DNA from: Paraescarpia echinospica
Lineage: Eukaryota > Annelida > Polychaeta > Sabellida > Siboglinidae
DNA: 64,000 nucleotides
Assembly: GCA_020002185.1 (NCBI GenBank)
Contig: CM034537.1
Coordinates: 12,852,625-12,916,624, forward strand
Reading direction: 5' to 3'
The translations under genes and the position numbers were made by a program. Below, piece by piece: positions 3,479 to 57,583 of this stretch; position 1 is the stretch's first letter, and every line of letters starts with the position of its first letter. The notes beneath the pieces were generated by a model that searched no databases, was not told the DNA's origin, and worked only from the letters and a program-made list of their open reading frames with translations.

Positions 3479-3480
3479 TA

Positions 3481-27500: not shown

Positions 27501-28601
27501 AACTATAACGTACACCTTCGGACACTAAACCAAATGAAAATGTTAACACAATCAGAGCATATGTTGTGCTTTTCTTTCAGGTACATCTGGAATAATGGCA
27601 TTAATATTAAATGCAAAATTCGTATCTTAATTTCCCTAACATTTTGAAATAAAAACTACCTATGTAGCTCTGCAAATAGTATATATATAGTCGATTGTGT
27701 TTGAAGATGGTGGTTATGAAAAATAAGGGGGTAGGGTTAGCGTTTCGGTCTTGTATGCAAACTATTACATTGTTTGTCAGAAAAGCGAGTGTTATTTTAT
27801 TTGGAAATGAACTGGGATTGTTGGGAGATAAAACATAATTGTCATGGTAATTAATGATTTGAACTAATGCCCACCCTTCACGAAACCAAACTAAATTTTT
27901 CATATATCTTAGCACATGTTGTGTTTTTCTTTCAACTTCGTCTACAATATTGATGTGTGCATTAACTACAAAGACGTATCTCACCATTCATACCAAAGTT
28001 AGCGAAGTAACCTTGTAATTAATACATATATTGCAGATTATGGTCTTGGGTGGCGGTTATGAAAAATGAGGGAGTAGAGTTATTATTTTGTTTGTGTATG
28101 CAATATATTGCATCGTTTGTCGGATAATCTAGAGTTTGTTTTATTTGGAAATGAATTGGAAGTTTATGTTTTAAAAATAGTTGTCATGTGCCACGTATGA
28201 AAGTAATTGTTTTGAACTATTGTACACCGTCGATCACGAAACCTATCTAAAATGTCAATATAATTTGGTACATTTTGTGCTTACATTTCAATTCTATCTC
28301 CTCTATTGATTTACGATTTGTTGCACACAGATGCCTCGTTTTTCCACACATGCTGGCATAAAATGTTATCATGTAGCCCTATAATTAGTAAATATATAGC
28401 CGATTATGTACATGTTGAAAAACCTTCAAAACGCCCTGCACCATTATCCCAAAATAGCTCACTACGTAATACAAAATCACAATAGAAAGTGTTGTGACTG
28501 GTAGAGGTCACAGATAATTCCTGGCACAGGTGACAGCTTTTAACATTTCGGTACCCCTACTGTGATTTATATAACCCTTTTGAGATGTTGGGCCTAGACT
28601 A
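24519..28601. mobile_element. Foldback-type element with long inverted arms made of ~370 bp subrepeats (4.1 kb)
   Basis: The outer ends are inverted: TAGCCTAGGC at 24519 and the inverse of TAGTCTAGGC ending at 28601, followed inward by CAAAAGG, GGTACC(T/G)AAATGTTA and CACAAT/AATCGGCTATATAT blocks in mirror order. The left arm contains about five tandem units with anchors like CCAAATAAAACAAC near 25121, 25440, 25800, 26195 and 26555. The right arm holds about three inverted units near 27410, 27790 and 28150. Unit length is 320-390 bp. An ordinary 129 bp tandem duplication (24551/24682) lies in the left end. No transposase is seen; a central 69-codon frame at 27061-27270 is unassigned. No clear target duplication. 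Confidence 0.65.
24551..24809 (+). repeat. Tandem duplication, ~130 bp unit, two copies
   Basis: Blocks CCATGCCAGGATTTATATAT, CCGGTTATAACCAGCCCGGG and GTAGTGAGCTA occur in both copies. The mirror arm at 28487-28570 has a single copy. Confidence 0.8.
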
Positions 28602-29296: not shown

Positions 29297-30925
29297 CTAT
29301 GTGTATCCCGCCCGTCTGAGGTATGTGTCGATTTTATTTTTAAACATATTCACGCTACTAGCACCCACACAATCAGCAGGTAATCTGTTCCATTCATTTA
29401 CAGTCCTTTGTGAAAATGAAAACTTTCTTATATCCAATCTACTCTGCTCCTTTGCCAATGTAAGTTCATGTCCTCTAGTCCTTCTATCTTTCTTAACTGA
29501 GAAAAAAATATTTCTATCAATATTTTCATAACCCTTCAATATTTTAAACACTTCTATCTGATCTCCTCTCAATCTCCTGGTCTCTAGTGTTGTTAAACCG
29601 CATTTTTTTAGGCGTATTTCGTAACTAAGATCCCTCAGTTTTGGTATCATTTTAGTTGCTCTCCTCTGCACTCTTTCTAGCATATCTATGTCCTTCCTGC
29701 GATATGGCCTCCACGCTTGAATACAATATTCTAAATGAGGCCTAACTATTGTTTTGTACAGCGGTATTATTAGCTCTTTTTCCTTATACGTTATGTTTCG
29801 CCTAATTAATCCAAGGATTTGATTTCCCTTTGAAGCTGCAATTCCGCACTGCTCTGAAACCTTCATATCAGCACTAATGGTTAACCCTAAGTCCTTTTCT
29901 TTTACAGTAGTACTTAGTACAGTACCCCCCATTGTATATTCTACTTCTTCGTTCCCATGTCCTGTGTGGAGGCATTTACATTTCCCAAAATTGAACAGCA
30001 TTTGCCACTTTTCAGACCATTTGATCAACCTGTCAAGATCATCTTGTAAATGCTGTCTATCTCCATCACTTTTAATCCTTCTAAACACTTTTGTATCATC
30101 CGCAAATTTCAACACCTTGCTTGTTATTTCATCATCCAAATCGTTGATATATATTAAGAATAATATAGGACCTAATACTGATCCCTGTGGTACCCCACTC
30201 AATACTGATTTCCAGTTTGAAGCCTCCCCATCAACTACTACACGTTGTCTTCTGTCAATCAACCATTGTTCTATCCAGTTTATTATACCATTTCCTATGC
30301 CATGGGCCTTTAGTTTAAGCAGTAATCTTTGATGTGGTACTTTGTCGAAAGCTTTTTGAAAATCTAAGTAGACGATATCTACTGGTGATCCCTCATCTAC
30401 CCACTTAGTGATGTCTTCCAAAAAACATAACATATTTGTTAAGCATGACCTCGCTTTAAAAAAACCATGTTGAGATGGGTTTATCAAGTTTTGTTTAACA
30501 AGAAAATCCACCATGTGATCTTTAATTAGTCTTTCTAACAATTTATAAATCACTGATGTTAAACTCACTGGTCTATAGTTCTCTGACTTGTTTCTCGAAC
30601 CTTTTTTGAATAACGGTATAATGTTTGCTTCTTTCCATTCTAAAGGAACCACTCCCTCTTCTAATGACAAGTTGAAAACTGTTGCAAGCGGTATGCTAAT
30701 TTGTTCTACAATTTCCAATAGTAGTTTGGGTGGAATACCATCCACTCCAGGTGATTTATTATCCTTCATAGCCCTTATTTTCTTACCTACCATTTCCGGG
30801 GTTACAATTAATTGTCCTAAATAGTCTGAATCTGCCCCCTTGAACTTAGCCTCTGGTACTGGCAGTGAACTAATATCTTCCCTGGTAAACACTGAACTAA
30901 AGTACTCATTCAGGTCTTCTGCCAT
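29297..30925 (-). CDS. CR1 ORF2 reverse transcriptase region, 542 codons open
   Basis: Open for 542 codons, starting at an internal Met; the natural ORF2 would continue upstream but one base is missing near 30932. Domains: RT palm with NYRPVSLTS (res. 116-124), YLDFQKAFDKVPH (motif A, Asp near 188), GVPQGSVLGPILFLIYINDL (motif B, 244-263) and FADD (motif C, 274-277), then thumb and the CR1 C-terminal domain ending RRAGYT. It copies CR1 RNA into DNA at the nicked target. All catalytic aspartates are present, so this part is potentially functional. The other copy of the duplication has five frame breaks over the same stretch. Confidence 0.9.
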   Translation of the reverse strand: MAEDLNEYFSSVFTREDISSLPVPEAKFKGADSDYLGQLIVTPEMVGKKIRAMKDNKSPGVDGIPPKLLLEIVEQISIPLATVFNLSLEEGVVPLEWKEANIIPLFKKGSRNKSENYRPVSLTSVIYKLLERLIKDHMVDFLVKQNLINPSQHGFFKARSCLTNMLCFLEDITKWVDEGSPVDIVYLDFQKAFDKVPHQRLLLKLKAHGIGNGIINWIEQWLIDRRQRVVVDGEASNWKSVLSGVPQGSVLGPILFLIYINDLDDEITSKVLKFADDTKVFRRIKSDGDRQHLQDDLDRLIKWSEKWQMLFNFGKCKCLHTGHGNEEVEYTMGGTVLSTTVKEKDLGLTISADMKVSEQCGIAASKGNQILGLIRRNITYKEKELIIPLYKTIVRPHLEYCIQAWRPYRRKDIDMLERVQRRATKMIPKLRDLSYEIRLKKCGLTTLETRRLRGDQIEVFKILKGYENIDRNIFFSVKKDRRTRGHELTLAKEQSRLDIRKFSFSQRTVNEWNRLPADCVGASSVNMFKNKIDTYLRRAGYT

Positions 30926-31557
30926 TAAGAATCCTCTGATATTATATTTCCAGCACTATCTTCTAGAGGACCGACTTTATCTTGAACTTTCTGTTTGCTT
31001 CGAACATACGCATAAAAACTCTTGCTGTCATGTTTTATACTACTAGCTAATTGTTGTTCATAGCTTCTCTTTGAATTTCTAATTTCAGCTGTAGCTTGGT
31101 TAAGTGCTTCTTTATAACTGTTGTAGTCTTCATCATTTCCAGTACATCTGTATGACTTCCACATCATTTGTTTGTACTTAATTTTTCTAATGGCTTTTTT
31201 CGATAAGTGTTTCTTTTTGGACCGTTTTCCTTGTTTTTTGAAGGGTACAAATTTATCGACTATGCACTTAATTTCACTCTTTAATACATTCCAGCATTCT
31301 GTTGCCGTCTTATTTTTCAGTGTGTTATTCCAGTCTATCTTTGCTAAATATTTCCTCATGTCCTTATACCTTCCTTTGTGGAAATTTCTCCTATACTGCT
31401 TTTTACTATTCCTTTCTGATTTTACTTTGATGGTAAAATGTATCTGGTTGTGATCGCTACTCCCCAGTGGCTCACATATCTTGACATTGTCAACTAATTC
31501 ATTCTGTGAGGACAAAACTATGTCTAACACATTCTCACCCCTGGTTGGTTCTAGCAC
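30925..31557 (-). pseudogene. CR1 ORF2 endonuclease C-terminal part and linker (210 codons)
   Basis: Starts within the endonuclease: EPTRGENVLDIVLSSQNELV and GSSDHNQIHF, where SDH (res. 34-36) is the last catalytic block of APE-type endonucleases. It continues through a Lys/Arg-rich linker (KKHLSKKAIRKIKYKQMMWK) to GPLEDSAGNIISEDS, where a one-base deletion separates it from the RT frame. Upstream it is separated from the rest of the endonuclease by a one-base change near 31585. Confidence 0.88.
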
Positions 31558-31583
31558 ATGTTGAGAAAGGAATGTATCTTGAA

Positions 31584-32093
31584 CTAAACTAAAAACTTGT
31601 GGTCCTCACTCCCCATACTCTGTAGAGATTTCCATTGTATATGCCCGTGGTTAAAATCCCCCATAATAATACAGTCCCGTTTGCTTACTTCCCTTATAGC
31701 GTTTTGTATTTTTTCATTCTCTTCTATGCTTATGTTTGGACTTCGATAAACTAACCCAACTGTTAACGTTGAGTTTCCTGTAACTATGTTACACCAAACA
31801 GCTTCTTCGCAATCTGCTTCTCTTTCTAATTTTATTTCATAAGCCTGAATAGATTCTTTAATATATAAAATAACTCCACCTCCCTTTCTTCCTATTCTAT
31901 CTTTTCTAAACATTACATATCCTGTCAGTCCCAATTCAGCATCTGATATATCGGTGGTGGTCCAGGATTCGGTTATACCTATTATATGAGGGTCAATATC
32001 TTCTACCATAATGTTTAGTTCATTTCTTTTGTTTACTATACTCCTTGCATTTAAACAAACACATTTATATCCAGCTTCAGAAGAGTTTTCCAC
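31584..32093 (-). pseudogene. CR1 ORF2 endonuclease N-terminal part (169 codons)
   Basis: APE-type endonuclease: CVCLNARSIVNKRNELNIMV (start, with the conserved Asn), IIGITESW (catalytic Glu near res. 42), GLVYRSPN (112-120) and IIMGDFNHG (GDFN at 145-148). Complete catalytic set up to the break at 31584. Nicks the genomic target to prime reverse transcription. Confidence 0.9.
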
Positions 32094-32172
32094 ACTGTTA
32101 TTTGCTGATTTATTTGTGCTGTCTTTATCTATGCCTCCATTTTCAGGCTTTTCTGTGAGTCCCCCTGCGAAT

Positions 32173-33365
32173 CTAGTTTAAATAGATACAACCTGTCCCA
32201 CTGTCAACAGATCGCAGCAGGTTCTCTGAGAAAACTGCTGCCCCCTTTCCACTAAGATGGAGGCCATCTCTCATGTACATATCTTCCCTCCCAACAAAGT
32301 ATCCCCATAAATCTGTGAATCCCACCCCCTCTTCGTCACACATCTGCTCAACTAGTACGTTGATCGCCATCCTCTTACAGTTTCTATACGTTGCCCCCCT
32401 TCCTCCCATTACTGGCAAAATTCCTGACAGAATAACCTGTTCAACTCTCGTCTTCTGTAGCTTCCTCACTAACTGTCTATACTTCTGTACTATCGCAGTT
32501 GTTCCCTCCCTGTCTGCATTATTTGTTCCTACATGTACCAGTATAGACCCCCCCTTGCCATGTCCCAATACCTTCTCTACCCTGTCAGTTACATGTTCAA
32601 TCCTAGCCCCCGGTAAACAAACAACGATGTCCTTCCCCTCGCTCAGTGCCTTGTCCGTCTTTCTCATAATGGAGTCGCCCATAAACACCCTCTCTTTCCT
32701 CATTGCCCCCTCAATCACTGCCTTAGAATAGCTCCTTCTTCGGTTTGCATCTGTCTGCTTGTTGTCTTTCCCCCCTGTCGTCTTCTCTCCTGTCACATTC
32801 TCTTCCGATCCATTCTTTCCTGTCGCTTTTTCTCTTGTCACCTTCCCTTTATCGAATTCTCTTCTATCACATTTTCTCTCACTTCCTTTCTTCCCTTCTT
32901 CGTTCGTCCCATCTCGTTTTCCTCTCTCCTCTCCCTTCCCATCTTCCCTCCCTCCTTCTCTACGGTCACTTTCTTCCCTGTCACCTTCACGCTTGTCACG
33001 TTTTCTGTTGTCGATTTTCCAATTTCTTCTCCTCCAATCACCTTCCCTCCTCTCAATCTCCTTTCCTCAGTTTTCTTGCCACTGCTATTCTCCTTCAGTC
33101 TTGCAGTATTCTCACCTCTCTCCCTGTCGTCTCTCTTCATTCGACCTGCCTCCTTGCTAATTCCCATCTCCATTCCCTTCACAATATCTGTCAACCTAAC
33201 TATCTCCTTCTGCAGACACTCCACCTTCCAACACCCAATGCACTGAAAGGTGAATCCTTCTGCCCATGACTTCCCACAGCCGGACAATGCAAAATCTACC
33301 CAGCTGTGGCAGTGATCGCACACCAAGTGTCGCTTTGCCTTGACTTGCCGCTTGCAAGGCGCCAT
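32173..33365 (-). pseudogene. CR1 ORF1 (left copy): PHD-like finger, charged region, SGNH esterase domain; one frameshift
   Basis: Same protein as the intact 401-codon frame at 39966-41171, but split near 32840 by a lost base (CCCTTTATCGAATT against CCCTTTTATCGACTT) into 33365-32838 and 32841-32173. It also lacks 15 bases near 33255. N-terminal part: CDHCHSWVDFALSGCGK and CIGCWKVECL. C-terminal part: FMGDSIMRK, LVHVGTNN, DGLHLSGKG, the three SGNH blocks. Confidence 0.88.
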
Positions 33366-33501
33366 ATCCCGATCAGAAATTATTTAATAACTTAACTAAC
33401 TTAGTCTTTATAAAGACTGTTTCCTGTGTACTACAGCACACTTTAGGTTACAAATTTCAATTACACAGCCAACTATTTATCCGGACACGAACGCTAACAT
33501 T

Positions 33502-34501
33502 NNNNNNNNNNNNNNNNNNNNNNNNNNNNNNNNNNNNNNNNNNNNNNNNNNNNNNNNNNNNNNNNNNNNNNNNNNNNNNNNNNNNNNNNNNNNNNNNNNN
33601 NNNNNNNNNNNNNNNNNNNNNNNNNNNNNNNNNNNNNNNNNNNNNNNNNNNNNNNNNNNNNNNNNNNNNNNNNNNNNNNNNNNNNNNNNNNNNNNNNNNN
33701 NNNNNNNNNNNNNNNNNNNNNNNNNNNNNNNNNNNNNNNNNNNNNNNNNNNNNNNNNNNNNNNNNNNNNNNNNNNNNNNNNNNNNNNNNNNNNNNNNNNN
33801 NNNNNNNNNNNNNNNNNNNNNNNNNNNNNNNNNNNNNNNNNNNNNNNNNNNNNNNNNNNNNNNNNNNNNNNNNNNNNNNNNNNNNNNNNNNNNNNNNNNN
33901 NNNNNNNNNNNNNNNNNNNNNNNNNNNNNNNNNNNNNNNNNNNNNNNNNNNNNNNNNNNNNNNNNNNNNNNNNNNNNNNNNNNNNNNNNNNNNNNNNNNN
34001 NNNNNNNNNNNNNNNNNNNNNNNNNNNNNNNNNNNNNNNNNNNNNNNNNNNNNNNNNNNNNNNNNNNNNNNNNNNNNNNNNNNNNNNNNNNNNNNNNNNN
34101 NNNNNNNNNNNNNNNNNNNNNNNNNNNNNNNNNNNNNNNNNNNNNNNNNNNNNNNNNNNNNNNNNNNNNNNNNNNNNNNNNNNNNNNNNNNNNNNNNNNN
34201 NNNNNNNNNNNNNNNNNNNNNNNNNNNNNNNNNNNNNNNNNNNNNNNNNNNNNNNNNNNNNNNNNNNNNNNNNNNNNNNNNNNNNNNNNNNNNNNNNNNN
34301 NNNNNNNNNNNNNNNNNNNNNNNNNNNNNNNNNNNNNNNNNNNNNNNNNNNNNNNNNNNNNNNNNNNNNNNNNNNNNNNNNNNNNNNNNNNNNNNNNNNN
34401 NNNNNNNNNNNNNNNNNNNNNNNNNNNNNNNNNNNNNNNNNNNNNNNNNNNNNNNNNNNNNNNNNNNNNNNNNNNNNNNNNNNNNNNNNNNNNNNNNNNN
34501 N
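33502..34501. other. Assembly gap, exactly 1000 N
   Basis: Run of 1000 undetermined bases; the round number indicates a placeholder. The flanking sequence is duplicated across it. Confidence 0.99.
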
Positions 34502-36386
34502 TTATCAAAATGTTTACAATTGTACGTTGCGTAGTTGTATTAAATACGTATTTCAATGTTATAGACGGATTTAAAGGGAAGCACACACTATACCAACATG
34601 TATTAACATTGTAGTTGGATTTTGTGACGGACGGTGAGTAATACTTCAAATCATTACTTACATCCATGGAACATGACACTTTTATTTGTAACTGAAGAGT
34701 CAAGCTATTCATACGTCAACTAACATGACATTGTGCGCTTCATAAACGCACAAAATATATAATATGTGTAGCATCTACGTACCACACTCTTTATAACAGG
34801 TTGATCTTACATGTAACCGGGGGGAGGCAATTATGGTGAAACCAAATGGCAGTACTTAGAAATTGTGAGCTTTCATATCTGGAAGCGTTGCAAAAATGTT
34901 CCATGGTCGTGATGTTCATCTACTCAAATCATCCCATGAAAGTCTATGTAAGTGTCCTGTACCATATGCTGATGCAACTTGTCAAGCAGGTCTTGAAATA
35001 TTATCTTAAGCAAATATTCCTATTCGTTGGTGCTTTTTACTCCATTACAGTGTAAATTGCAACACAATGTAGTCAAGAACTTTGGACAAGAAGAGCTACT
35101 GCTATAGGCTATTGTATTTGAATACGGTGGTTATAAAAAACTAAGGGGTAGATTTAGTGTTTTGGCTTTGTATACAATATGTTAAATTCGTTGTCTGATA
35201 AACTAATGCTACTTTATTTGGAAAGGAACTGCAATTATTGCGAGATAAAAATAATTGTCATGCGCCACTTGTAAGTAATGATTTGAACTATAACGTACAC
35301 CTTCGGACACTAAACCAAATGAAAATGTTAACACAATCAGAGCATATGTTGTGCTTTTCTTTCAGGTACATCTGGAATAATGGCATTAATATTAAATGCA
35401 AAATTCGTATCTTAATTTCCCTAACATTTTGAAATAAAAACTACCTATGTAGCTCTGCAAATAGTATATATATAGTCGATTGTGTTTGAAGATGGTGGTT
35501 ATGAAAAATAAGGGGGTAGGGTTAGCGTTTCGGTCTTGTATGCAAACTATTACATTGTTTGTCAGAAAAGCGAGTGTTATTTTATTTGGAAATGAACTGG
35601 GATTGTTGGGAGATAAAACATAATTGTCATGGTAATTAATGATTTGAACTAATGCCCACCCTTCACGAAACCAAACTAAATTTTTCATATATCTTAGCAC
35701 ATGTTGTGTTTTTCTTTCAACTTCGTCTACAATATTGATGTGTGCATTAACTACAAAGACGTATCTCACCATTCATACCAAAGTTAGCGAAGTAACCTTG
35801 TAATTAATACATATATTGCAGATTATGGTCTTGGGTGGCGGTTATGAAAAATGAGGGAGTAGAGTTATTATTTTGTTTGTGTATGCAATATATTGCATCG
35901 TTTGTCGGATAATCTAGAGTTTGTTTTATTTGGAAATGAATTGGAAGTTTATGTTTTAAAAATAGTTGTCATGTGCCACGTATGAAAGTAATTGTTTTGA
36001 ACTATTGTACACCGTCGATCACGAAACCTATCTAAAATGTCAATATAATTTGGTACATTTTGTGCTTACATTTCAATTCTATCTCCTCTATTGATTTACG
36101 ATTTGTTGCACACAGATGCCTCGTTTTTCCACACATGCTGGCATAAAATGTTATCATGTAGCCCTATAATTAGTAAATATATAGCCGATTATGTACATGT
36201 TGAAAAACCTTCAAAACGCCCTGCACCATTATCCCAAAATAGCTCACTACGTAATACAAAATCACAATAGAAAGTGTTGTGACTGGTAGAGGTCACAGAT
36301 AATTCCTGGCACAGGTGACAGCTTTTAACATTTCGGTACCCCTACTGTGATTTATATAACCCTTTTGAGATGTTGGGCCTAGACTA
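34502..36386. mobile_element. Partial second copy of the foldback element (right half)
   Basis: Corresponds to 26717-28601: last left-arm unit, central spacer with the same 69-codon frame (34846-35055), and three right-arm units. All the open frames I compared are identical to the left copy. Confidence 0.75.
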
Positions 36387-37082: not shown

Positions 37083-39984
37083 TATGTGTATCCCGCCCGT
37101 CTGAGGTATGTGTCGATTTTATTTTTAAACATATTCACGCTACTAGCACCCACACAATCAGCAGGTAATCTGTTCCATTCATTTACAGTCCTTTGTGAAA
37201 ATGAAAACTTTCTTATATCCAATCTGCTCTGCTCCTTTGCCAATGTAAGTTCATGTCCTCTAGTCCTTCTATCTTTCTTAACTGAGAAAAAATATTTCTA
37301 TCAATATTTTCATAACCCTTCAATATTTTAAACACTTCTATCTGATCTCCTCTCAATCTCCTGGTCTCTAGTGTTGTTAAACCGCATTTTTTTAGGCGTA
37401 TTTCGTAACTAAGATCCCTCAGTTTGGTATCATTTTAGTTGCTCTCCTCTGCACTCTTTCTAGCATATCTATGTCCTTCCTGCGATATGGCCTCCACGCT
37501 TGAATACAATATTCTAAATGAGGCCTAACTATTGTTTTGTACAGCGGTATTATTAGCTCTTTTTCCTTATGCGTTATGTTTCGCCTAATTAATCCAAGGA
37601 TTTGATTTCCCTTTGAAGCTGCAATTCCGCACTGCTCTGAAACCTTCATATCAGCACTAATGGTTAACCCTAAGTCCTTTTCTTTTACAGCAGTACTTAG
37701 TACAGTACCCCCATTGTATATTCTACTTCTTCGTTCCCATGTCCTGTGTGGAGGCATTTACATTTCCCAAAATTGAACAGCATTTGCCACTTTTCAGACC
37801 ATTTGATCAACCTGTCAAGATCATCTTGTAAATGCTGTCTATCTCCATCACTTTTAATCCTTCTAAACACTTTTGTATCATCCGCAAATTTCAACACCTT
37901 GCTTGTTATTTCATCATCCAAATCGTTGATATATATTAAGAATAATATAGGACCTAATACTGATCCCTGTGGTACCCCACTCAATACTGATTTCCAGTTT
38001 GAAGTCTCCCCATCAACTTCTACACGTTGTCTTCTGTCAATCAACCATTGTTCTATCCAGTTTATTATACCATTTCCTATGCCATAGGCCTTTAGTTTAA
38101 GCAGTAATCTTTGATGTGGTACTTTGTCGAAAGCTTTTTGAAAATCTAAGTAGACGATATCTACTGGTGATCCCTCATCTACCCACTTAGTGATGTCTTC
38201 CAAAAACATAACATATTTGTTAAGCATGACCTCGCTTTAAAAAACCATGTTGAGATGGGTTTATCAAGTTTTGTTTAACAAGAAAATCCACCATGTGATC
38301 TTTAATTAGTCTTTCTAACAATTTACAAATCACTGATGTTAAACTCACTGGTCTATAGTTCTCTGACTTGTTTCTCGAACCTTTTTTGAATAACGGTATA
38401 ATGTTTGCTTCTTTCCATTCTAAAGGAACCACTCCCTCTTCTAATGACAAATAGAACATTTCATTAAACTGTTGCAAGCGGTATGCTAATTTGTTCTACA
38501 ATTTCCAATAGTAGTTTGGGTGGAATACCATCCACTCCAGGTGATTTATTATCCTTCTTAGCCCTTATTTTCTTACCTACCATTTCCGGGGTTACAATTA
38601 ATTGTCCTAAATAGTCTGAATCTGCCCCCTTGAACTTAGCCTCTGGTACTGGCGGTGAACTAATATCTTCCCTGGTAAACACTGAACTAAAGTACTCATT
38701 CAGGTCTTCTGCCATTAAGAATCCCTCTGATATTATATTTCCAGCACTATCTTCTAGAGGACCGACTTTATCTTGAACTTTCTGTTTGCTTCGAACATAC
38801 GCATAAAAACTCTTGCTGTCATGTTTTATACTACTAGCTAATTGTTGTTCATAGCTTCTCTTTGAATTTCTAATTTCAGCTGTAGCTTGGTTAAGTGCTT
38901 CTTTATAACTGTTGTAGTCTTCATCATTTCCAGTACATCTGTATGACTTCCACATCATTTGTTTTGTACTTAATTTTTCTAATGGCTTCTTTCGATAAGT
39001 GTTTCTTTTTGGACCGTTTTCCTTGTTTTTTGAAGGGTACAAATTTATCGACTATGCACTTAATTTCACTCTTTAATACATTCCAGCATTCTGTTGCCGT
39101 CTTATTTTTCAGTGTGTTATTCCAGTCTATCTTTGCTAAATATTTCCTCATGTCCTTATACCTTCCTTTGTGGAAATTTCTCCTATACTGCTTTTTACTA
39201 TTCCTTTCTGATTTTACTTTGATGATAAAATGTATCTGGTTGTGATCGCTACTCCCCAGTGGCTCACATATCTTGACATTGTCAACTAATTCATTCTGTG
39301 AGGACAAAACTATGTCTAACACATTCTCACCCCTGGTTGGTTCTAGCACATGTTGAGAAAGGAATGTATCTTGAACTAAAACTAAAAACTTGTGGTCCTC
39401 ACTCCCCATACTCTGTAGAGATTTCCATTGTATATGCCCGTGGTTAAAATCCCCCATAATAATACAGTCCCGTTTGCTTACTTCCCTTATAGCGTTTTGT
39501 ATTTTTCATTCTCTTCTATGCTTATGTTTGGACTTCGATAAACTAACCCAACTGTTAACGTTGAGTTTCCTGTAACTATGTTACACCAAACAGCTTCTTC
39601 GCAATCTGCTTCTCTTTCTAATTTTATTTCATAAGCCTGAATAGATTCTTTAATATATAAAATAACTCCACCTCCCTTTCTTCCTATTCTATCTTTTCTA
39701 AACATTACATATCCTGTCAGTCCCAATTCAGCATCTGATATATCGGTGGTGGTCCAGGATTCGGTTATACCTATTATATGAGGGTCAATATCTTCTACCA
39801 TAATGTTTAGTTCATTTATTTTGTTTACTATACTCCTTGCATTTAAACAAACACATTTATATCCAGCTTCAGAAGAGTTTTCCACACTGTTATTTGCTGA
39901 TTTATTTGTGCTGTCTTTATCTATGCCTCCATTTTCAGGCTTTTCTGTGAGTCCCCCCTGCGAATCTAGTTTAAATAGATACAA
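37083..39984 (-). pseudogene. CR1 ORF2 (right copy), endonuclease to RT, several frameshifts
   Basis: Endonuclease N-terminal part at 39984-39487 (IIGITESW, GLVYRSPN), then after a lost T the GDFN and SDH blocks at 39457-38924. Linker and RT start are at 39042-38464, and here the linker-to-RT joint (NIISEGFLMAEDLNEYF) is in frame, unlike the left copy. RT blocks follow in 38477-38220, 38227-37697 (YLDFQKAFD, GVPQGSVLGPILF, FADD) and 37757-37419. Most breaks are one-base differences in homopolymers (A, T or C runs). A 10-16 base replacement near 38450 is a larger change. Whether the breaks are real or sequencing errors cannot be told from this window. Confidence 0.88.
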
Positions 39985-41171
39985 CCTGTCCCACTGTCAA
40001 CAGATCGCAGCAGGTTCTCTGAGAAAACTGCTGCCCCCTTTCCACTAAGATGGAGGCCATCTCTCATGTACATATCTTCCCTCCCAACAAAGTATCCCCA
40101 TAAATCTGTGAATCCCACCCCCTCTTCGTCACACATCTGCTCAACTAGTACGTTGATCGCCATCCTCTTACAGTTTCTATACGTTGCCCCCCTTCCTCCC
40201 ATTACTGGCAAAATTCCTGACAGAATAACCTGTTCAACTCTCGTCTTCTGTAGCTTCCTCACTAACTGTCTATACTTCTGTACTATCGCAGTTGTTCCCT
40301 CCCTGTCTGCATTATTTGTTCCTACATGTACCAGTATAGACCCCCCCTTGCCATGTCCCAATACCTTCTCTACCCTGTCAGTTACATGTTCAATCCTAGC
40401 CCCCGGTAAACAAACAACGATGTCCTTCCCCTCGCTCAGTGCCTTGTCCGTCTTTCTCATAATGGAGTCGCCCATAAACACCCTCTCTTTCCTCATTGCC
40501 CCCTCTATCACTGCCTTAGAATAGCTCCTTCTTCGGTTTGCATCTGTCTGCTTGTTGTCTTTCCCCCCTGTCGTCTTCTCTCCTGTCACATTCTCTTCCG
40601 ATCCATTCTTTCCTGTCGCTTTTTCTCTTGTCACCTTCCCTTTTATCGACTTCTCTTCTATCACATTTTCTCTCACTTCCTTTCGTCCCTTCTTCGTTCG
40701 TCCCATCTCGTTTTCCTCTCTCCTCTCCCTTCCCATCTTCCCTCCCTCCTTCTCTACGGTCACTTTCTTCCCTGTCACCTTCACGCTTGTCACGTTTTCT
40801 GTTGTCGATTTTCCAATTTCTTCTCCTCCAATCACCTTCCCTCCTCTCAATCTCCTTTCCTCAGTTTTCTTGCCACTGCTATTCTCCTTCAGTCTTGCAG
40901 TATTCTCACCTCTCTCCCTGTCGTCTCTCTCCATTCGACCTGCCTCCTTGCTAATTCCCATCTCCATTCCCTTCACAATATCTGTCAACCTAACTATCTC
41001 CTTCTGCAGACACTCCACCTTCCAACACCCAATGCACTGAAAGGTGAATCCTTCCTCCATGGTTTCTGCCCATGCCTTCCCACAGCCGGACAATGCAAAA
41101 TCTACCCAGCTGTGGCAGTGATCGCACACCAAGTGTCGCTTTGCCTTGACTTGCCGCTTGCAAGGCGCCAT
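39966..41171 (-). CDS. CR1 ORF1 protein, intact, 401 codons
   Basis: RNA-binding/chaperone-type first protein of a CR1 LINE. Residues 16-54 carry a Cys/His cluster (C16, C19, H20, C30, C46, C49, C54) resembling a PHD-like finger. Residues about 55-220 are extremely charged (Lys/Glu/Arg), likely helical and nucleic-acid binding. The C-terminal ~180 residues are an SGNH/GDSL esterase domain: GDS near 234-236 (nucleophile Ser), GTNN near 284-287 (oxyanion block) and DGLH near 371-374 (catalytic Asp and His). PHD plus esterase ORF1 is known from vertebrate and invertebrate CR1. It starts at MAPCKRQVK and ends 18 bases before ORF2 begins on the same strand. All key residues are present. Confidence 0.92.
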   Translation of the reverse strand: MAPCKRQVKAKRHLVCDHCHSWVDFALSGCGKAWAETMEEGFTFQCIGCWKVECLQKEIVRLTDIVKGMEMGISKEAGRMERDDRERGENTARLKENSSGKKTEERRLRGGKVIGGEEIGKSTTENVTSVKVTGKKVTVEKEGGKMGRERREENEMGRTKKGRKEVRENVIEEKSIKGKVTREKATGKNGSEENVTGEKTTGGKDNKQTDANRRRSYSKAVIEGAMRKERVFMGDSIMRKTDKALSEGKDIVVCLPGARIEHVTDRVEKVLGHGKGGSILVHVGTNNADREGTTAIVQKYRQLVRKLQKTRVEQVILSGILPVMGGRGATYRNCKRMAINVLVEQMCDEEGVGFTDLWGYFVGREDMYMRDGLHLSGKGAAVFSENLLRSVDSGTGCIYLN

Positions 41172-41307
41172 ATCCCGATCAGAAATTATTTAATAACTTA
41201 ACTAACTTAGTCTTTATAAAGACTGTTTCCTGTGTACTACAGCACACTTTAGGTTACAAATTTCAATTACACAGCCAACTATTTATCCTGACACGAACGC
41301 TAACATT

Positions 41308-48164: not shown

Positions 48165-48796
48165 CTCCATGGGTGCCCCGGCGGCTCATCGAAATGGCCT
48201 CTCATACTACTGACGCGTATTCCCCACATAACGCATCCGTGGAATACACTCAGCTCGTAGCGTTTGGCAAAGAATGGTTCAAGTCCCTCTGGACTGATCG
48301 TCGGCCAACCTTGTTGGGTTCTCTCCGGAATCTTTGACATGACCGGGTCCTTGCTGGAATCTGTATTGATGTTTGTTGCGACAGGAAGGGTTTCCATGTG
48401 GTCCATGTAGAACATCTCCACCACATCAAGATGTGTATCCCCCCGTTTTCAATGGTAACCTCGAAAGTCCATCTGCATGTTTCAAAAAGCGGGACTATCT
48501 CATAGTCGTGTGCTGCTAGTTGTAGGGCATATCGTTGCATTCGTGCAGCCGTCATTGCTCTAATACTCTTCCCTGGATGAAAGATAGCTGTGAGGGGTTG
48601 GTGATACGTCACTAGTGTGAATCGTCTTCCAAACAGGTACTGATTGAACTTCCTGACTCCCCACACGAGTCCCAGTGCTTCTTTGTCTATATGGCTGTAA
48701 TTCCGTTCAGCCTTGTTTAAAGTTCGCGAAGCGAACACGATTGGTTTCTTCAACTCATCTGCATCGTATGACTGAGTACGGCCCATAACCCATATG
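48165..48796 (-). pseudogene. Ty3/gypsy RNase H domain and following region
   Basis: RNase H removes template RNA during reverse transcription. Reads SAYGLWAVLSH (shifted), PIVFASRTLNKAERNYSHID, KEALGLVWGVRKFNQYLFGR and YHQPLTAIFHPGKSI, the standard gypsy RNase H; the conserved Asp before HQPL is replaced by Tyr. After a frame change near 48480 come LPVATNINTDSSKDPVMSKI, GWPTISPEGLEPFFAKRYEL and GCVMWGIRV, the linker toward integrase. Integrase itself is not seen. Inactive. Confidence 0.85.
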
Positions 48797-48984
48797 CAGA
48801 TGGTCAAATCCAGCGAACGGGGGTCTTGGGGCTACACACAAGGTCGAAAATAGAATTGCCTGGATCTTTTGTTCAGTTATGGTATTAAATGTGCATAATA
48901 TTGAGGCGACTTCACCAAAAATTGGGCACACTAATTCACAACATTGACGATTTTATAGTCGCTTGAAGTTCAAAGGTGTGTTCT

Positions 48985-49361
48985 GTTATCATCCGAGGAC
49001 CACGAGTTATCGTCCGTTAGCAGGACATAACCCACAGTACAAAGGTGTTGTGTTGGATATTTAACTTTTTGTCAATGAAAAACATGTGGACATATGTTAT
49101 AACGGCATGACTTTCGGGGGGGGGGGGTACTTATTTAGAGTTGTCAGAGTGCGGTGAAGTGTTTTTGCACTTCAATATTGCCCCACTCTATTTTCCGAAT
49201 GTGTTGTCATTACTTGTACAACAAGACAAACACGCTGTAGATATGTGCATATTGTTTATATTTAAGCGGACGATGTGTTTTATCCATTGGTTATGCTATG
49301 GACGTAACCTGCAAATTTGTAGCACCAGACACTCAGACAAAATGGTACTCGGACGATAACA
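48985..49361. repeat. Subterminal inverted motif pair (GTTATCgTCCGAGgACCA)
   Basis: GTTATCATCCGAGGACCA near 48985 and its inverse TGGTACTCGGACGATAAC near 49343 bracket about 375 bp; another inverse copy lies at about 56990. Either a small MITE or shared subterminal sites of the 8.6 kb element; the third copy near the opposite end favours the second. Confidence 0.5.
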
Positions 49362-49588
49362 CAATTTTAAAAATCAGTATAGAATCTGGAATATTAATGA
49401 CTAGCAGTAAATTATGAAAGTTGTTTATGTTGCAATATTAGCCACACCTGTATCCCTTACGTATGTATACCTTGTTCTCTGCTGTCCTCTTTGTATTTCG
49501 AGTGCTAAAGTTGTTGAATAATCGTATATTTTCTACTTCTGCATTGTAGTCATTACTTGTACAACAAGACAAACACGTAGTAGATATG
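49206..49588 (+). repeat. 40 bp direct repeat, copies at 49206-49245 and 49549-49588
   Basis: GTCATTACTTGTACAACAAG then ACAAACACG..GTAGATATG occurs twice, 38 of 40 identical, 343 bp apart. The second copy ends exactly where the large palindrome begins. Confidence 0.75.
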
Positions 49589-49944
49589 GCTGTGGCGGCT
49601 TACTCGCGGCTGCGCCTGCTGGGGTCGGTGGCATTTTTGCCGTGAGGCGTAACGATAAGAGCTAGCCGGAGAATGCATAAGAGCTAAAAATATCAACGCT
49701 AGCCAGAGAACGCTACTTTATTATTCATATTGTAGCTAGGAGTGAGACTGTTTTCTGATAAGGGTGCTGTATTAGTAAGCTGAAGTTGGCTTTATTGGTC
49801 GTGTACGAGTAGTTGGATTATAGAGACCTATAGTAAATCGGATATTACGACGAGGCTTGTATTATGAACATATGAAAGGAGACGGTAAGCTATATATATT
49901 TTATTAGTCCGTGGTTAATCTTTTAGCGTAGAATGGTCTCTAGT

Positions 49945-50097
49945 GACCACTATGTGCTACACCTTATACTTATGTCTTAACCACTATGCACTACACCTTA
50001 TATCTTATACTTATGTCTTAACCACTATGTGCTATACCTTATACTTATGTCTTAGCCACTATGTGCTATACCTTATACTTATGTCTTAATCACTACG
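49945..50097 (+). repeat. Minisatellite, left arm, outer part
   Basis: About four ~41 bp units of CCACTATGTGCTACACCTTA-TACTTATGTCTTAA, resuming at 51346 beyond LINE copy C. Confidence 0.85.
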
Positions 50098-51042
50098 TGC
50101 CGCTCTTATTTATTATATATATAAATGATATTGCACATTCGAGTGACCTTTTTAAATTCATAACATATGCTGACGACACCACTCTTACTAGTACACTAAA
50201 ACATTTAATGATTCAGAAGGCCAAATGCGAAGTGAAAATATTAACAAAGAACTAACAAAGATTAGTAATTGGTTAAAAGCTAATAAACTGTCACTAAATG
50301 CCAAAAAGACTAAATTCATGATTTTTCATGCCGCAAAAGAAAATAGAATACCCTGTTACAAATAGATGGGGCACACATTGAATGTGTAAATGATTTCAAT
50401 AGTTTAGGCATCACAATAAATAACCATTTAAACTGGCAGAGTCATACAAACAAAATAGCAAATAAAATCTCTAAAACAATAGGCATACTAAATAAACTTA
50501 AAATTTTTTTACAACCTAATACATTATATATTACGTACAATGCTCTTATTCTCCCTCATATTAATTATGGCTTACTTTTATGGGGTCATCAGGCACATCG
50601 AATTTTCAAATTACAGAAAAAAACAATACGAATAATATCCTTAAGTAAATATAATGCTCACACAAGTCCTATTTTTGAAAGACTTCAGTTGCTAAAGTTG
50701 GATGACATTTATAAAATTCAACAATTAAAATTTTACTTTAAATTAATTAACAATCTTTTACCCTCCTACTTCAATGTTTTTCCAAACACACACATCTATA
50801 ATATTCATCAGCACTGCACACGTGAAAGAAATAATCTGTATATGTCCAGATTCAAACATGAATTTGCCAAAAAATGCATTAGACACAACATAGTTGAGAC
50901 AGTTAACAATACACCAAGTATTATCATTAATACAATTTACACCCACAGTCTGTATGGTTTTTCAACATACACAACAAACTTTTTTATTTTAAATTATGAA
51001 TCTTGTTGTCGTATTCATAATTGCTTTATTTGCAATTCGTAA
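50098..51042 (+). pseudogene. LINE reverse transcriptase C-terminal half (copy C)
   Basis: Motif B remnant and YADD (motif C, about 50165), then KLSLNAKKTKFMIFHAAKE, FNSLGITINNHLNWQ in shifted frames, and the C-terminal TKHEFAKKC-like block (FKHEFAKKCIRHN) with a Cys-rich end (CCRIHNCFICNS). It parallels copies A and B. Confidence 0.82.
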
Positions 51043-51226
51043 TACGTATTGAAATGTATACCTAAATATCCATATATACGTCAATTATTTGTACAAGAGT
51101 ACATTTAATCAGTCCTTGTATTATATATGTATGTTGATACACTGAGTAATTATCAACTTTAAAACAAGGCATATGCTATTCTGATTTGTGACATGTAAAT
51201 TTTGATGTTGATTATATTTATGGGGT

Positions 51227-51266
51227 GGCTCCTGTGCTAGCGATATTGTATATCTTAATGGGAGTC
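51227..51266 (+). promoter_or_regulatory. Conserved 3' UTR stem-loop of the LINE (copy C)
   Basis: GGCTCC (51227-51232) pairs with GGAGTC (51261-51266); loop contains GTGCTAGCGATATTGTATAT. Confidence 0.55.
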
Positions 51267-51753
51267 TCCCGACCTTATCTAGTACTCATGTTATTCATTG
51301 TGTATATATCGTATTTATAGGTCAAATAAACTGATTCTGATATACCTTATACTGATGTCTTAGCCACTATGCACTACACTTGATACCTTATACTTATGTC
51401 TTAACCACTATGCACTACACCTTATATCTTAACCACTATATGCTATACCTTATACTTATGTCTTAGCCACTATGTGCTATACCTTATGTCTTAGCCACTA
51501 TGCACTACACCTTATACTTATGTCTTAACCACTATGTGCTATACCTTGTCTTATCAACAATGCGCTATACCTTATACTTATGTCGTACCCACTGGACACT
51601 ATACCTTGTACCTTATTGCTTACTCACTATACACAATACTTTATACAATATACCTTTTACTATACCTTATACACTGTATATTATACTGTATACCTTATAC
51701 CTTCTACATAGTACACAATACCTTATTCTTATAGTGTATACAGTATACCTGAT

Positions 51754-53173
51754 CAGTGTTTCCCCTGGGTGAAATGATGGTAGAGGTGGGGTACGCGAGC
51801 GCCGCTGGCGCGAAGCGTTGTTAGGGGGGTCCGGGGGCATGCTCGCCCGGATATTTTTTTATTTGTATCGAATCCGGACCCTGTTGAAGTTCAAATACCA
51901 ACCCGGTTTGCGCTAGTCTGTGCCGCTGCGGCCGTGCGTTACCGCACAGCGAGCGTAAAAAGATATATATATAGCAGCGTATGTTGATACAAACCGGGGC
52001 GCTATTTACGCCTCAAATGGACGTAAGACGCAATATTCTTAAAGGTAAATATGCCTAGGATAATGTTGAATGATAGAACTACAGTGTATCTCACTGAGGT
52101 ATCAAAGATAAGCAAAACTCAAGCGGAAAAATCAATGACAAAGTAGGTCCGGGTTCGACGCAAATGCCCACAAGTCTATTCAACTAATATTCTATGCGGT
52201 TTTGTCTTAGCAAAATAAGGAATGTGATTCGTAAGATATCTTTGTGCTACATATATAATACATATTCCGACAAAGTTGTGCAAACAAACTTTTGGGAAAG
52301 TTGATTTGAGTGAAATACTTACGAATATAAACCAACGAAGTTCACATCTCATAAAAAAATGCCTACTACCCAAAACCGTGTATACTAACGGGTTATCATT
52401 AACTTGGGTTAGACAATGATATGCTTGCACAGCAATTGGATGTACTAAACAACTTATACTGTTTTATAAAAAGGACACAATTTGAGAAACATTCTTGCGA
52501 TTAATAGAAACATACTTTTGTGGCATTCCATAAATGACTGTTTAATTAATTGTATAGCATTCTAGAAAACAAATAAAATATAATCTTTTGAACATAAACC
52601 ACCAATTTACCATAATATTATGATATTAAAATAATTTAAAGGTGATGATGAAAGAGTCTTCAGATGATATCACTGGATGCTTCCCAGAGAAGTCGAGATG
52701 GTTTTCGACTGAACAGGTCTGCCAGGGAGTAAAGTGTAAAGCGCTTTGAGCAGTCCTGCGCTATATAAGAACTCACCGTTTACTTTTTTATTGACTCTGT
52801 CAGCGAGGTAACAAGGCATAGGGTTAGTGCAATAAAACATAACCATAACCAAGTACCAGTGGTCAAGTGGAAACCACACCTCTACTGAGTACCAGTGGTA
52901 GAATGGAAACCACACCTCAACACGATGAAACAATCATGATTACTGACTTTTATCAATCATGATTACTACATTTACAAGTAGTGTCTTGTTATTTTATATC
53001 TTCCCCTGTATATTCAAGAGTAAAGGTTAAAACATACCTCAGAATGCACCATTTTAAAGCTAGTTTAAAAAAATATCCGGGCGAGCATGCCCCCGGACCC
53101 CCCTAACAACGCTTCGCGCCAGCGGCGCTCGCGTACCCCACCTCTACCATCATTTCACCCAGGGGAAACGCTG
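51754..53173. mobile_element. hAT-like non-autonomous core at the palindrome centre
   Basis: Begins CAGTGTTTCCCCTGGGTG and ends with the inverse CACCCAGGGGAAACGCTG; inverted similarity runs about 107 bp inward and includes GGGGGGTCCGGGGGCATGCT, a signature of a widespread hAT family (recalled). CTGATCAG is present on both outer borders if CAG/CTG is counted as target. The interior has no transposase; a SINE tail sits at 52730-52790. Confidence 0.65.
52726..52800 (+). repeat. Truncated SINE tail
   Basis: AGTGTAAAGCGCTTTGAGCA then GTCCTGCGCTATATAAGAAC matches the 3' part of the SINE at 23800-24010. Confidence 0.6.
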
Positions 53174-53419
53174 ATCAGGTATACTGTATACACTATAAGA
53201 ATAAGGTATTGTGTACTATGTAGAAGGTATAAGGTATACAGTATAATGTACAGTGTATAAGGTATAGTAAAAGGTATATTGTATAAGGTATTGTGTATAG
53301 TGTGTAAGCAATAAGGTAAAAGGTATAGTGTCCAGTGGGTACGACATAAGTATAAGGTATAAGGTATAGCGCATTGTTGGTAAGACATAAATATAAGGTA
53401 TGAGGTATAGCACATAGTG

Positions 53420-55040
53420 GTTAAGACATAAGTATAAGGTATAAGGTGTAGCGCATAGTGGTTAAGACATAAGTATAAGGTATAAGGTGTAGCACATAGT
53501 GGTTAAGACATAAGTATAAGGTATAAGGTGTAGCGCATAGTGGTTAAGACATAAGTATAAGGTATAAGGTGTAGTGCATAGTGGCTAAGACATAAGTATA
53601 AGGTATAAGGTATAGCACATAGTGGTTAAGACATAAGTATAAGATATAAGGTGTAGTGCGTAGTGGTTAAGACATAAGTATAAGATATAAAGTGTAGTGC
53701 ATAGTGGTTAAGACATAAGTATAAGGTATAAAGTGTAGTGCATAGTGGCTAAGACATAAGTATAAGATATAAGGTATAGCGCATAGTGGTTAAGACATCA
53801 GTATAAGGTATAACGCATATTGGTTAAGACATAAGTATAAGATATAAGGTGTAGTGCATAGTGGTTAAGACATAAGTATAAGGTATAAAGTGTAGTGCAT
53901 AGTACTAAGACATAAGTATAAGATATAAGGTATAGCGCATAGTGGTTAAGACATCAGTATAAGGTATAGCGCATATTGGTTAAGACATAAGTATAAGATA
54001 TAAGGTGTAGTGCATAGTGGTTAAGACATAAGTATAAGGTATAAAGTGTAGCGCACAGTGGTTAAGACATCAGTATAAGGTATAAGGTATAGCGCATAGT
54101 GGTTAAGACATAAGTATAAGATATAAGGTGTAGTGCATAGTGGTTAAGACATAAGTATAAGGTATAAAGTGTAGCGCACAGTGGTTAAGACATCAGTATA
54201 AGGTATAAGGTATAGCGCATAGTGGTTAAGACATAAGTATAAGATATAAGGTGTAGTGCATAGTGGTTAAGACATAAGTATAAGGTATAAAGTGTAGCGC
54301 ACAGTGGTTAAGACATCAGTATAAGGTATAAGGTATAGCGCATAGTGGTTAAGACATAAGTATAAGATATAAGGTGTAGTGCATAGTGGTTAAGACATAA
54401 GTATAAGGTATAAAGTGTAGCGCACAGTGGTTAAGACATCAGTATAAGGTATAAGGTATAGCGCATAGTGATTAAGACATAAGTATAAGATATAAGGTGT
54501 AGTGCATAGTGGTTAAGACATAAGTATAAGGTATAAAGTGTAGTGCATAGTGGCTAAGACATAAGTATTAAGTATAAGGTATAGCACATAGTGGTTAAGA
54601 CATAAGTATAAGGTATAGCGCATAGTTGTTAAGACATCAGTGTAAGGTATAACACATAGTGGTTAAGACATAAGTATAAGGTATAAAGTGTAGTGCATAG
54701 TGGCTAAGACATAAGTATTAAGTATAAGGTATAGCACATAGTGGTTAAGACATAAGTATAAGGTATAGCGCATAGTTGTTAAGACATCAGTGTAAGGTAT
54801 AACACATAGTGGTTAAGACATAAGTATAAGGTATAAAGTGTAGTGCATAGTGGCTAAGACATAAGTATTAAGTATAAGGTATAGCACATAGTGGTTAAGA
54901 CATAAGTATAAGGTATAAGGTATAGCGCATAGTGGTTAAGACATAAGTATAAGGTATAGCGCATAGTTGTTAAGACATAAGTATAAGGTATAAGGTATAA
55001 CACATTGTGGTTAAGGCATAAGTATAAGGTGTAGCACATA
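53420..55040 (-). repeat. Minisatellite, right arm, with 123 bp and 150 bp higher-order repeats
   Basis: About forty ~41 bp units. A 123 bp period (three monomers) is exact for the marker GTAGCGCACAGTGG at 54048, 54171, 54294 and 54417. A second period of 150 bp is exact for TGGCTAAGACATAAGTATTA at 54551, 54701 and 54851. The open frames here are translations of the repeat. Confidence 0.9.
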
Positions 55041-55340
55041 GTGGTCACTAGAGACCATTCTACGCTAAAAGATTAACCACGGACTAATAAAATATATATA
55101 GCTTACCGTCTCCTTTCATATGTTCATAATACAGGCCTCGTCGTAATATCCGATTTACTATAGGTCTCTAAAATCCAACTACTCGTACACGACCAATAAA
55201 GCCAACTTCAGCTTAATAATACAGCACCCTTATCAGAAAACAGTCTCACTCCTAGCTACAATATGAATAATAAAGTAGCGTTTCCGGCTAGCGTTGTTAT
55301 TTTTAGCTCTTATGCATTCTCCGGCTAGCATCGGCTCTGA

Positions 55341-55550
55341 TCGTTACGCCTCACGGCAAAAAGGCCACCGACCCCAGCAGGCGCAGCCGCGAGTAAGCCA
55401 CCACAGCCTGCGCTAGGCTTAACTAGGGCACTGACGCTCTTATCGTTACGCCTCACGGCAAAAGTTCACCGACCCCAGCAGGCGCAGCCGCGAGTAAGCC
55501 CTGCTACAGCCTGCGCTAGGCTTAACTAAGGCACTGACGCTATAGAGATC
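55341..55550 (+). repeat. 102 bp tandem duplication at the palindrome's right border
   Basis: TCGTTACGCCTCACGGCAAA starts at 55341 and 55443; both copies continue CACCGACCCCAGCAGGCGCA and end in AGCCTGCGCTAGGCTTAACT. Confidence 0.85.
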
Positions 55551-55709
55551 ATAGGTCAGCATTCTCCGGCTAGTGTTGGCGTTGTATTACGGGCTTGTAC
55601 AGGGACGTAAAATGAATAAAAATAAGTAGTTCTCAACAATAGTGTACTTTATTTTAGCGCAAATTTCAAATAGACGTCACTAGACACGCTACTGTTTACT
55701 TCTATATAA

Positions 55710-56095
55710 CCACAAGTTTTCATACACATAACCTCATAACCACACACATAACCATATAACCTCACACATAACCTCATAACCACACACATAACCACACATA
55801 TAACCATAACCTCACATATAACCTAATTAGTCACTAAGTGACTAATTAGTTCTAATTAGTGACTAATTAGTCACCTCTAACCTCTGACCACGCATAACCA
55901 CTAGAGGCCAGCACTATACAACTATACACTTACACGAACTGCACTAATTAGTCACTAATTGTGTGTCCTGGCCTCTAGTGACTATTAGTAGTCACTAGAG
56001 GCCAGCACACACGAACAGGACTTACATGAACCGCCTAGTCACTAGAGGCGTCACTAGAGGCCAGCACACACACGAACTGCACTTACATGAACCCG
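55710..56095. repeat. (ATAACC)-type simple repeat and CTAGAGGCCAGCAC interspersed repeats
   Basis: CATAACC / CACACATAACC runs at 55720-55825. A perfect palindrome CTAATTAGTCACT-A-AGTGACTAATTAG lies at 55823-55849. CACTAGAGGCCAGCAC occurs near 55910, 55995 and 56048 with CACTTACA(C/T)GAAC beside it, plus inverse copies. Confidence 0.75.
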
Positions 56096-56100
56096 CGGTG

Positions 56101-56984
56101 ATAATAAAAAGGGTTCAAAAAACCTATTAATCAAACCTATTTTATACTTTTTTATAAGTAAGATGTCATCAAACAATTAAGATAAGAAATTTTTTATAAG
56201 TAGATTTTTATGACAGGTCATCCATCATTTCTTTTTTATAAGTAGGAATCCATTTGGAGCTACTGATCCAAAAATCCTTTGATGTTCTTTGATCTTTTGC
56301 AACTGTACGGTAGTCTGTGTACTACTGACAGCTTTTTCCAAATCCTAATAAATCAGGAAATAATGTACAAATTCTACCGAAACCGATCTAATGCCAAGCA
56401 TAATTGTAAGTAATGCACTTAATGAGTCAAATTGGACAGGAAGATAATTTTTGCCATCATATAACACACACACACAATGGCATATTAAGACTCTATTTCA
56501 CACAATGCCTTTCTTAATGCAGTATTACTATTAACAACGTATTGCTTTATCTCCGTGGATCATCGTTATCGATCGTGGCCCCCTTTAAAAAAACACTCAT
56601 GAAACGTTGTATCCCGCAGTATTATAGCTCATGCGTTATGACATGTGGTCGTCATCGAGAGGAACATATAACATCAAATTCGAGCACTATCACGCATAAA
56701 TAACATGTGTATGATTGTTACCGTAGATCAGAATAAGAGAGATGGTCTTTAGTAGGAATAAAAATCTCCTACTATTCTCCACAAGTTTGTGTTAAAACGA
56801 AAGAAACAAGGGCCCCGGACGATACCGCGAAAAACTTCCCCAAACCTGAGTCGGCGGAGAAAAAAGAAAAATACCAAAAGGTACATCTAAAAAATAACAG
56901 TGATTTTTTTTATTACACATGTTAGTATATATGTACACCTAAATATGCATGTTATCGATTAATAATTTTACATGAATATGCCAT
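56101..56984. other. Unassigned part of the 8.6 kb element
   Basis: Short repeats of TTTTTTATAAGTA at about 56148, 56191 and 56231; nothing coding recognised. Confidence 0.5.
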
Positions 56985-57583
56985 TAGAAAAATGGTCCTC
57001 GGACGATAACACCAATATTCCCCATGACCAATATATTTTTAAAAAATCAGGTTATTTGCAAATTGCATTAATTACAAGGCAGTAACAACATAGGCACATG
57101 TGGTGTTCTAATAAAGTAATAAACACGGTGCATATCCATGGTTTACGATGACTACTGATTAAAAAAAAATATAGAGGTCAACATTTAAAAAAATGGCCAA
57201 AAACGACCAGTTTATCAGCTTTAGTTCCAAAGGTTTTCAAACTAGAAATAAAAAAACTATATATTCCTCGAAAAGTATCATCGAGCCGGATAAAAAGCAT
57301 ATTTTAACACTTTTAGTCACATAATTACTCAAGATACATGTCTAAACATGCCGTGTACCCCGTCCGTTGGATTTGACCAGATGCATAGCACGCTATTCTG
57401 ATTGGCAAGTTCGGATCGTAGTGGACGGGAACTTGTACCGATGTGTTCAGTCTGTTTGCTTCATTGAACGCTTATTCACACTCCTTGGACCTCATCCATT
57501 CCTGATCCTTCTCTTGTAACTGGCGTAGGGGATGCAAGACATTGGCCAGGTTGAGTAAAAACCTGTAGTAGTAATTCACCATC

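Follow-up and report, generated by a model that had tools for sequence, protein, structure and literature searches.

Within a 64,000-bp stretch of the genome of the siboglinid annelid Paraescarpia echinospica (assembly GCA_020002185.1, contig CM034537.1, positions 12,852,625 to 12,916,624 of the forward strand; hereafter the window), a mobile unit of 8.6 kb interrupts a gypsy-type element. In our view the unit most likely belongs to group Sola2 of the Sola superfamily of cut-and-paste DNA transposons, as one copy of a non-autonomous, multi-copy family; we put the probability of this assignment at roughly 70%. The family of the window copy is referred to here as the 3.9-kb family, and the related family represented by the genomic stretches L076 and L077 as the cousin family.

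The left end of the unit, GTCAAATCCAGCGAACGGGG, starts at 48803, and its imperfect inverse GTCAAATCCAACGGACGGGG, located on the minus strand, ends at 57377; CAGATG adjoins both ends. The flanks consist of gypsy-type pol on the minus strand, where the open reading frame (ORF) at 48250-48831 contains RT_RNaseH (Pfam profile match, E=9.4e-23). When the flanks are joined without the unit, ...I-A-C-Y-A-S-A-Y-G... is obtained in the gypsy RNase H region. Since inverted ends and flanking repeats are present and excision restores the gypsy codons, the unit is mobile. In this respect the initial annotation, which had pointed to the inverted ends and the restored codons, is upheld: both ends are there, the right one being imperfect, and joining the flanks confirms the codons. 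A separate frameshift lies in the gypsy reading frame a few codons past the restored ACYASAYG, so the gypsy copy has decayed.

The family was traced in the 1.08-Gb assembly (3111 contigs). Searches with the left and the right 300 bp gave at least 40 matches each (40 of 112 and 40 of 118 candidates scored, respectively), and 30 matches were fetched for either end. A 21-bp end pattern, allowing up to two mismatches, was matched 143 times in the genome (73 forward and 70 reverse), and the reversed-pattern control gave 0 matches; at least 20 facing pairs occur among 100 of the 143 ends listed. Viral contigs scanned for the exact end pattern gave 0 matches. Eleven copies were excised (C5a without its right end), together with one short copy of 2449 bp. 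The typical length is 3.9 kb (C153, C2, C4, C6 and C12b), and nine aligned copies are 89-94% identical pairwise when the nested insert of C9 is omitted. Longer copies have either an expansion of an internal 23-bp minisatellite (C12a and C5a) or inserts (C8, C9 and C5b).

The letters of the window can be read equally well as a duplication of 6 bp, of 4 bp (AGAT, with ends GGTC...GACC) or of 2 bp (GA, with ends TGGTC...GACCA). All three readings give one and the same empty site, because CAGATG has C...G on the outside and A/T next inward. The readings were compared in the 12 copies for which both ends were available, leaving out C5a, whose right end is missing, and the pair L034/L083, in which L083 showed no recognisable left end. 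With 6 bp, the two sides are identical in a single copy, the window copy itself. The 4-bp reading is identical in 8 of the 12 (six times ATAT, once ATGT in C12a and once AGAT in the window), and the copies that miss it, namely C153 (ACAT/ATAT), C2 (ATAT/ATAC), C6 (TAAT/ATAT) and C5b (ATAT/GTAT), are all in (TA)n or similar repeats. At least one flank is non-repetitive at C8, C1 and C4s (ATAT), C12a (ATGT) and the window copy (AGAT). The four bases next to the left end are ATAT in 18 of 31 cases (one of the 31 without flank), and those next to the right end in 20 of 27; the fetched insertions are mostly in or beside (TA)n.

Most of the fetched left ends read ...TATG followed by GTCAAATCC, and most of the right ends GGATTTGAC followed by CATA.... 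Because most copies read TATG before the left end and CATA after the right one, the G and the C adjoining these ends are counted as part of the element. The boundary is best read as GGTCAAATCCAACGAACGGGG at either end, flanked by an AT-rich duplication of 4 bp, mostly ATAT; on both sides, the GGTC ends start one base outside the GTCAAA ends proposed initially. CAGATG is indeed present on both sides of the unit, but 6 bp does not stand as the duplication length: no further paired copy carries it, the boundaries of the other copies differ, an outcome that the initial annotation had itself named as refuting, and at the window it is a one-copy artefact, because the outer bases of CAGATG are palindromic. 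A single copy can thus mislead, in that a palindromic target made a shorter duplication look like 6 bp and a probably known type look new. With the 4-bp reading, the window copy extends over 48802-57378 and is delimited by the following features:

48798-48801, no strand: left copy of the target site duplication AGAT (4-bp reading; flank comparison across copies)
48802-48822, plus strand: left terminal inverted repeat GGTCAAATCCAGCGAACGGGG (end pattern in other genome copies)
57358-57378, minus strand: right terminal inverted repeat GGTCAAATCCAACGGACGGGG, as read on the minus strand (end pattern in other copies)
57379-57382, no strand: right copy of the target site duplication AGAT (4-bp reading; flank comparison across copies)

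According to PMC3627910, Sola2-type elements have inverted repeats of 12-13 bp and of 21 bp, together with 4-bp AWWT duplications, including ATAT. Sola2 also has derivatives retaining part of the gene. In all three respects the 3.9-kb family is alike, with an AT-rich 4-bp target in eight paired copies (the 2-bp reading fits ten) and 21-bp inverted ends for which the pattern search gave its 143 matches against an empty control. Sola2 is known from bivalve molluscs, as stated in PMC10294476. The initial annotation had proposed an undescribed element or a non-autonomous partner of a rare one. The unit is non-autonomous and probably belongs to a rare superfamily. The case for an undescribed kind depended on the pairing of 6-bp duplications with GTCAAA ends, and with 4-bp AT-rich duplications and GGTC ends the unit fits the described group Sola2.

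IS3EU/GingerRoot elements are likewise DNA transposons with inverted ends, and according to PMC10045372 their termini are mostly TA..TA and their duplications usually 6 bp. IS3EU was rejected, as the ends here are GGTC..GACC and the 6-bp reading fits 1 of 12 copies. Dada shares with the 3.9-kb family that it is an animal DNA transposon with short duplications; PMC3706591 describes it as lacking terminal inverted repeats and targeting small-RNA genes. It was set aside because the 3.9-kb family has 21-bp inverted ends and the window copy sits in a gypsy element; an Rfam scan of the window found no family at threshold. Polintons have 6-bp duplications and long inverted repeats, and do not match inverted ends of about 21 bp with 6 bp duplicated in that one copy. 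The TTAA target of piggyBac and Kolobok is duplicated at 0 of the 12 paired sites.

In typical copies, a frame running antisense to the left-end reading is up to 273 codons long and ends ...WLAVRFNKKWYMARVL...GNWKWGRLEVGIVEASDII.... This remnant frame falls below every Pfam and NCBIfam cut-off and matched no solved structure by sequence. When its 90-amino-acid (aa) end was searched against the same genome, at least 150 matches were obtained (150 of 216 candidates scored). Some of them form a distinct group at roughly 30-39% identity, from which L076 and L077 were fetched. The frame L081:1631-2491, from a 4.5-kb copy, is 25% identical to the C-terminus of L076 over 229 aa (E=1e-26 in a single comparison) and 41% identical to L087 over 76 aa. 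In L077, a 357-aa core precedes the C-terminal region, with a stop and frame changes separating the pieces. Searching the genome with this core gave at least 122 matches (114 of 885 candidates scored), one of which, L087, represents a more distant lineage. Over 312 aa, in which L087 has one stop, L077 and L087 are 39% identical; they have in common IQ-x-D-x-x-EN, V-x-D-x-PSSQY and GPC-D-G; the exact motifs are IQ(M/L)D(Y/F)(A/S)EN, V(T/N)D(A/S)PSSQY and (DRK/HGR)GPCDG. The third motif reads HGKGPCDG in L076, L085 and L086.

As Bao et al. reportedly described in 2009, Sola transposases are DDD enzymes. The three conserved aspartates of the core are a putative catalytic triad, and the three-aspartate core of L077 and L087 would then be a further likeness to Sola2. 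The 3.9-kb family retains only the transposase part after the third aspartate. The initial annotation recognised no transposase; typical copies keep the C-terminus of one.

A longer copy encoding a transposase, as suggested by the initial annotation, was sought, and none was found among the core matches and facing pairs compared. The 8.3-kb copy C9 (C9:49250124-49258438; L054, L071, L008) was rejected as autonomous, since its extra 4.65 kb sits at a single point of the typical sequence; this insert looks like a nested element or transposon, and two of its own broken ORFs, when tested, matched no Pfam family. The 18.3-kb copy C5b (C5:14901035-14919374; L047, L069, L070, L027) was not taken as autonomous either, as the ORFs of its large insert are Polinton-like by eye. 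The cousin family includes derivatives (L076, L085 and L086) that have an N-terminal piece right before the third-aspartate motif, with an adjoining C-terminal frame that is open over 236-258 aa. L085 and L086 were rejected as intact transposases, because this N-terminal piece lies close to the motif and has no match to the core; both are read as deletion derivatives.

The ends of the cousin family were located as well. L076 and L084 begin with ATAT followed by GGTCGATTCTCACGAAAGG, in which 14 of 19 bases are like those of the 3.9-kb family. L084 is 94% identical to L076 over 404 bp from the shared end and reaches into the start of L077; it is therefore taken as the left terminus of the L077 copy. 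The 19 bases of GGTCGATTCTCACGAAAGG, again preceded by ATAT, also occur in L048, the flank of a copy of the 3.9-kb family, and the next 1.2 kb there matches the right side of L077 in reverse complement at 90% identity. Because this end leads into the right side of L077, both cousin ends are known, each with GGTCGATTCTCACGAAAGG beside ATAT. From position 1822 of L048, the cousin element starts in a (TA)n run directly beside the copy of the 3.9-kb family, so both families used one microsatellite. The two families are alike in their GGTC ends beside ATAT, the 14 shared end bases and a homologous C-terminus, but differ in that protein identity over the shared C-terminus is only about 25%; for this reason L076 and L077 are regarded as a cousin and not as the direct parent.

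Membership in Sola2 is probable on the basis of the target, the ends and the conserved-aspartate pattern, and several points weigh against it. Sola2 was compared by description only, and AGAT and ATGT fit ANNT, not AWWT. No duplication reading fits C153 and C6, and the L077 copy is without its right terminus. The core and the C-terminal piece stay below all Pfam cut-offs, and two protein-database searches with these proteins (one among 7999 candidates scored) gave nothing at E<=0.001. As for an autonomous partner, 56 of the 122 core matches were compared with 100 of the 143 ends, and 0 of the 56 lie within a facing pair; the autonomous parent of the family may therefore be lost or missed.

It is unlikely that the same family instead makes 2-bp duplications, preferably of TA, has ends TGGTCAAATCC...GGATTTGACCA and belongs to a superfamily other than Sola. 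The 2-bp reading is identical in 10 of the 12 paired copies, more than the 8 of the 4-bp reading, and agrees with the preponderance of insertions in or beside (TA)n; the surplus consists of C2 and C5b, both in repetitive TA/TACA sequence. The flanking T and A vary, however (left ends ...TTGG, ATAC and ATGC; right ends GTAT and TAAT), and a TA rule would be broken by the window copy (GA) and C12a (TG). The target and the ends, moreover, agree with the published features of Sola2, as may the three-aspartate core.

We also hold it improbable that the family belongs to a superfamily as yet undescribed and distantly related to Sola. The Pfam result for the core and the C-terminal domain would suit such a superfamily, as would the comparison of these proteins with solved structures by sequence, where nothing was better than E=0.9. 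Many rare eukaryotic transposases are absent from Pfam, though, so that a Pfam miss says little, and PMC3627910 gives just such a 4-bp AT-rich target and such 21-bp ends for Sola2. In a doubtful extension of this idea, the L077 and L087 transposases and the families moved by them, including the 3.9-kb family, would constitute a distinct animal superfamily with GGTC..GACC ends, ANNT targets in (TA)n, the core IQxDxxEN / VxDxPSSQY / GPCDG and a C-terminal domain outside Pfam, in which a non-autonomous family outlived its parent through the transposase of a cousin.

With Sola2 as the preferred assignment, the 3.9-kb family may be derived from an autonomous Sola2-type element through internal deletion and would have been mobilised in trans by this element or by one related to it. 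The transposase would recognise the ends and perhaps also subterminal GTTATCGTCCGAGGAC-like motifs, which by eye are repeated near 49000 and 57000, excise the unit and insert it at a target cut with a 4-bp stagger. The window copy would have landed at AGAT in the gypsy RNase H region and afterwards lost its middle and taken in a foldback repeat, which would itself have been hit by a long interspersed nuclear element (LINE) and a hAT-like unit. Since this nest lies inside a gypsy element, it yields a relative order of insertions. One genome gives a clear family, with its 143 ends, and transposase cousins, which is useful for annotating Sola-type elements.

Compared with the typical copy C12b, the window copy has kept positions 1-811, 2634-3022 and 3297-3940, and the 6.7 kb of 49590-56325 has no match in C12b. 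Its interior is composed as follows:

48802-49589, plus strand: left part of the transposon, corresponding to C12b 1-811 (91% identity) and including part of a tandem unit of about 350 bp (alignment)
49590-56325, no strand: foreign sequence replacing C12b 812-2633, a nest of other repeats (alignment, genome search)
49588-50100, plus strand: left arm of the nested foldback repeat, pairing with 54884-55408 (93%; self-alignment)
50101-51340, plus strand: piece of a LINE within the left foldback arm (by eye; 73% over 150 bp to window 3569-3712)
51757-53170, no strand: hAT-like unit with ends CAGTGTTTCCCC / CAGCGTTTCCCC (by eye; near the palindrome centre)
53311-55030, no strand: 41-bp minisatellite, about 43 copies, on the right side of the foldback repeat (repeat reading)
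54884-55408, minus strand: right arm of the nested foldback repeat (self-alignment, 93% to the left arm)
56326-57378, plus strand: right part of the transposon, corresponding to C12b 2634-3022 (87%) and 3297-3940 (86%; alignment)

The palindrome is built mostly of the 41-bp minisatellite and is interrupted by the LINE piece, whose ORF at 50347-51042 has no Pfam match, and near its centre by the hAT-like unit, which is flanked on both sides by the 8-bp palindromic CTGATCAG. The outer 373 bp of the palindrome occurs in at least 54 genome stretches, including three in the window (40 of 193 candidates scored). As this outer arm is found elsewhere in the genome alone, the palindrome is a repeat in its own right. 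What the initial annotation described as an 8.6-kb element is thus about 1.8 kb of transposon plus a nest of repeats. That it is instead one 8.6-kb element of unknown type with 6-bp duplications is very improbable, as this view fits the window copy by itself but conflicts with the single 6-bp case in 12 copies, with typical copies of about 3.9 kb that do not contain 49590-56325, and with an inner arm that occurs alone elsewhere.

At C6:18.725-18.785 Mb, copies of the 3.9-kb family are repeated in tandem about every 5.6 kb, as would result from satellite-like amplification of one copy together with its flank. Elsewhere in the window, 27607-27987 and 35392-35772 are identical stretches of 381 bp, each followed by similar CR1-like LINE ORFs (29297-33383 and 37697-41189; 33502-34501 reads N), possibly a local duplication.

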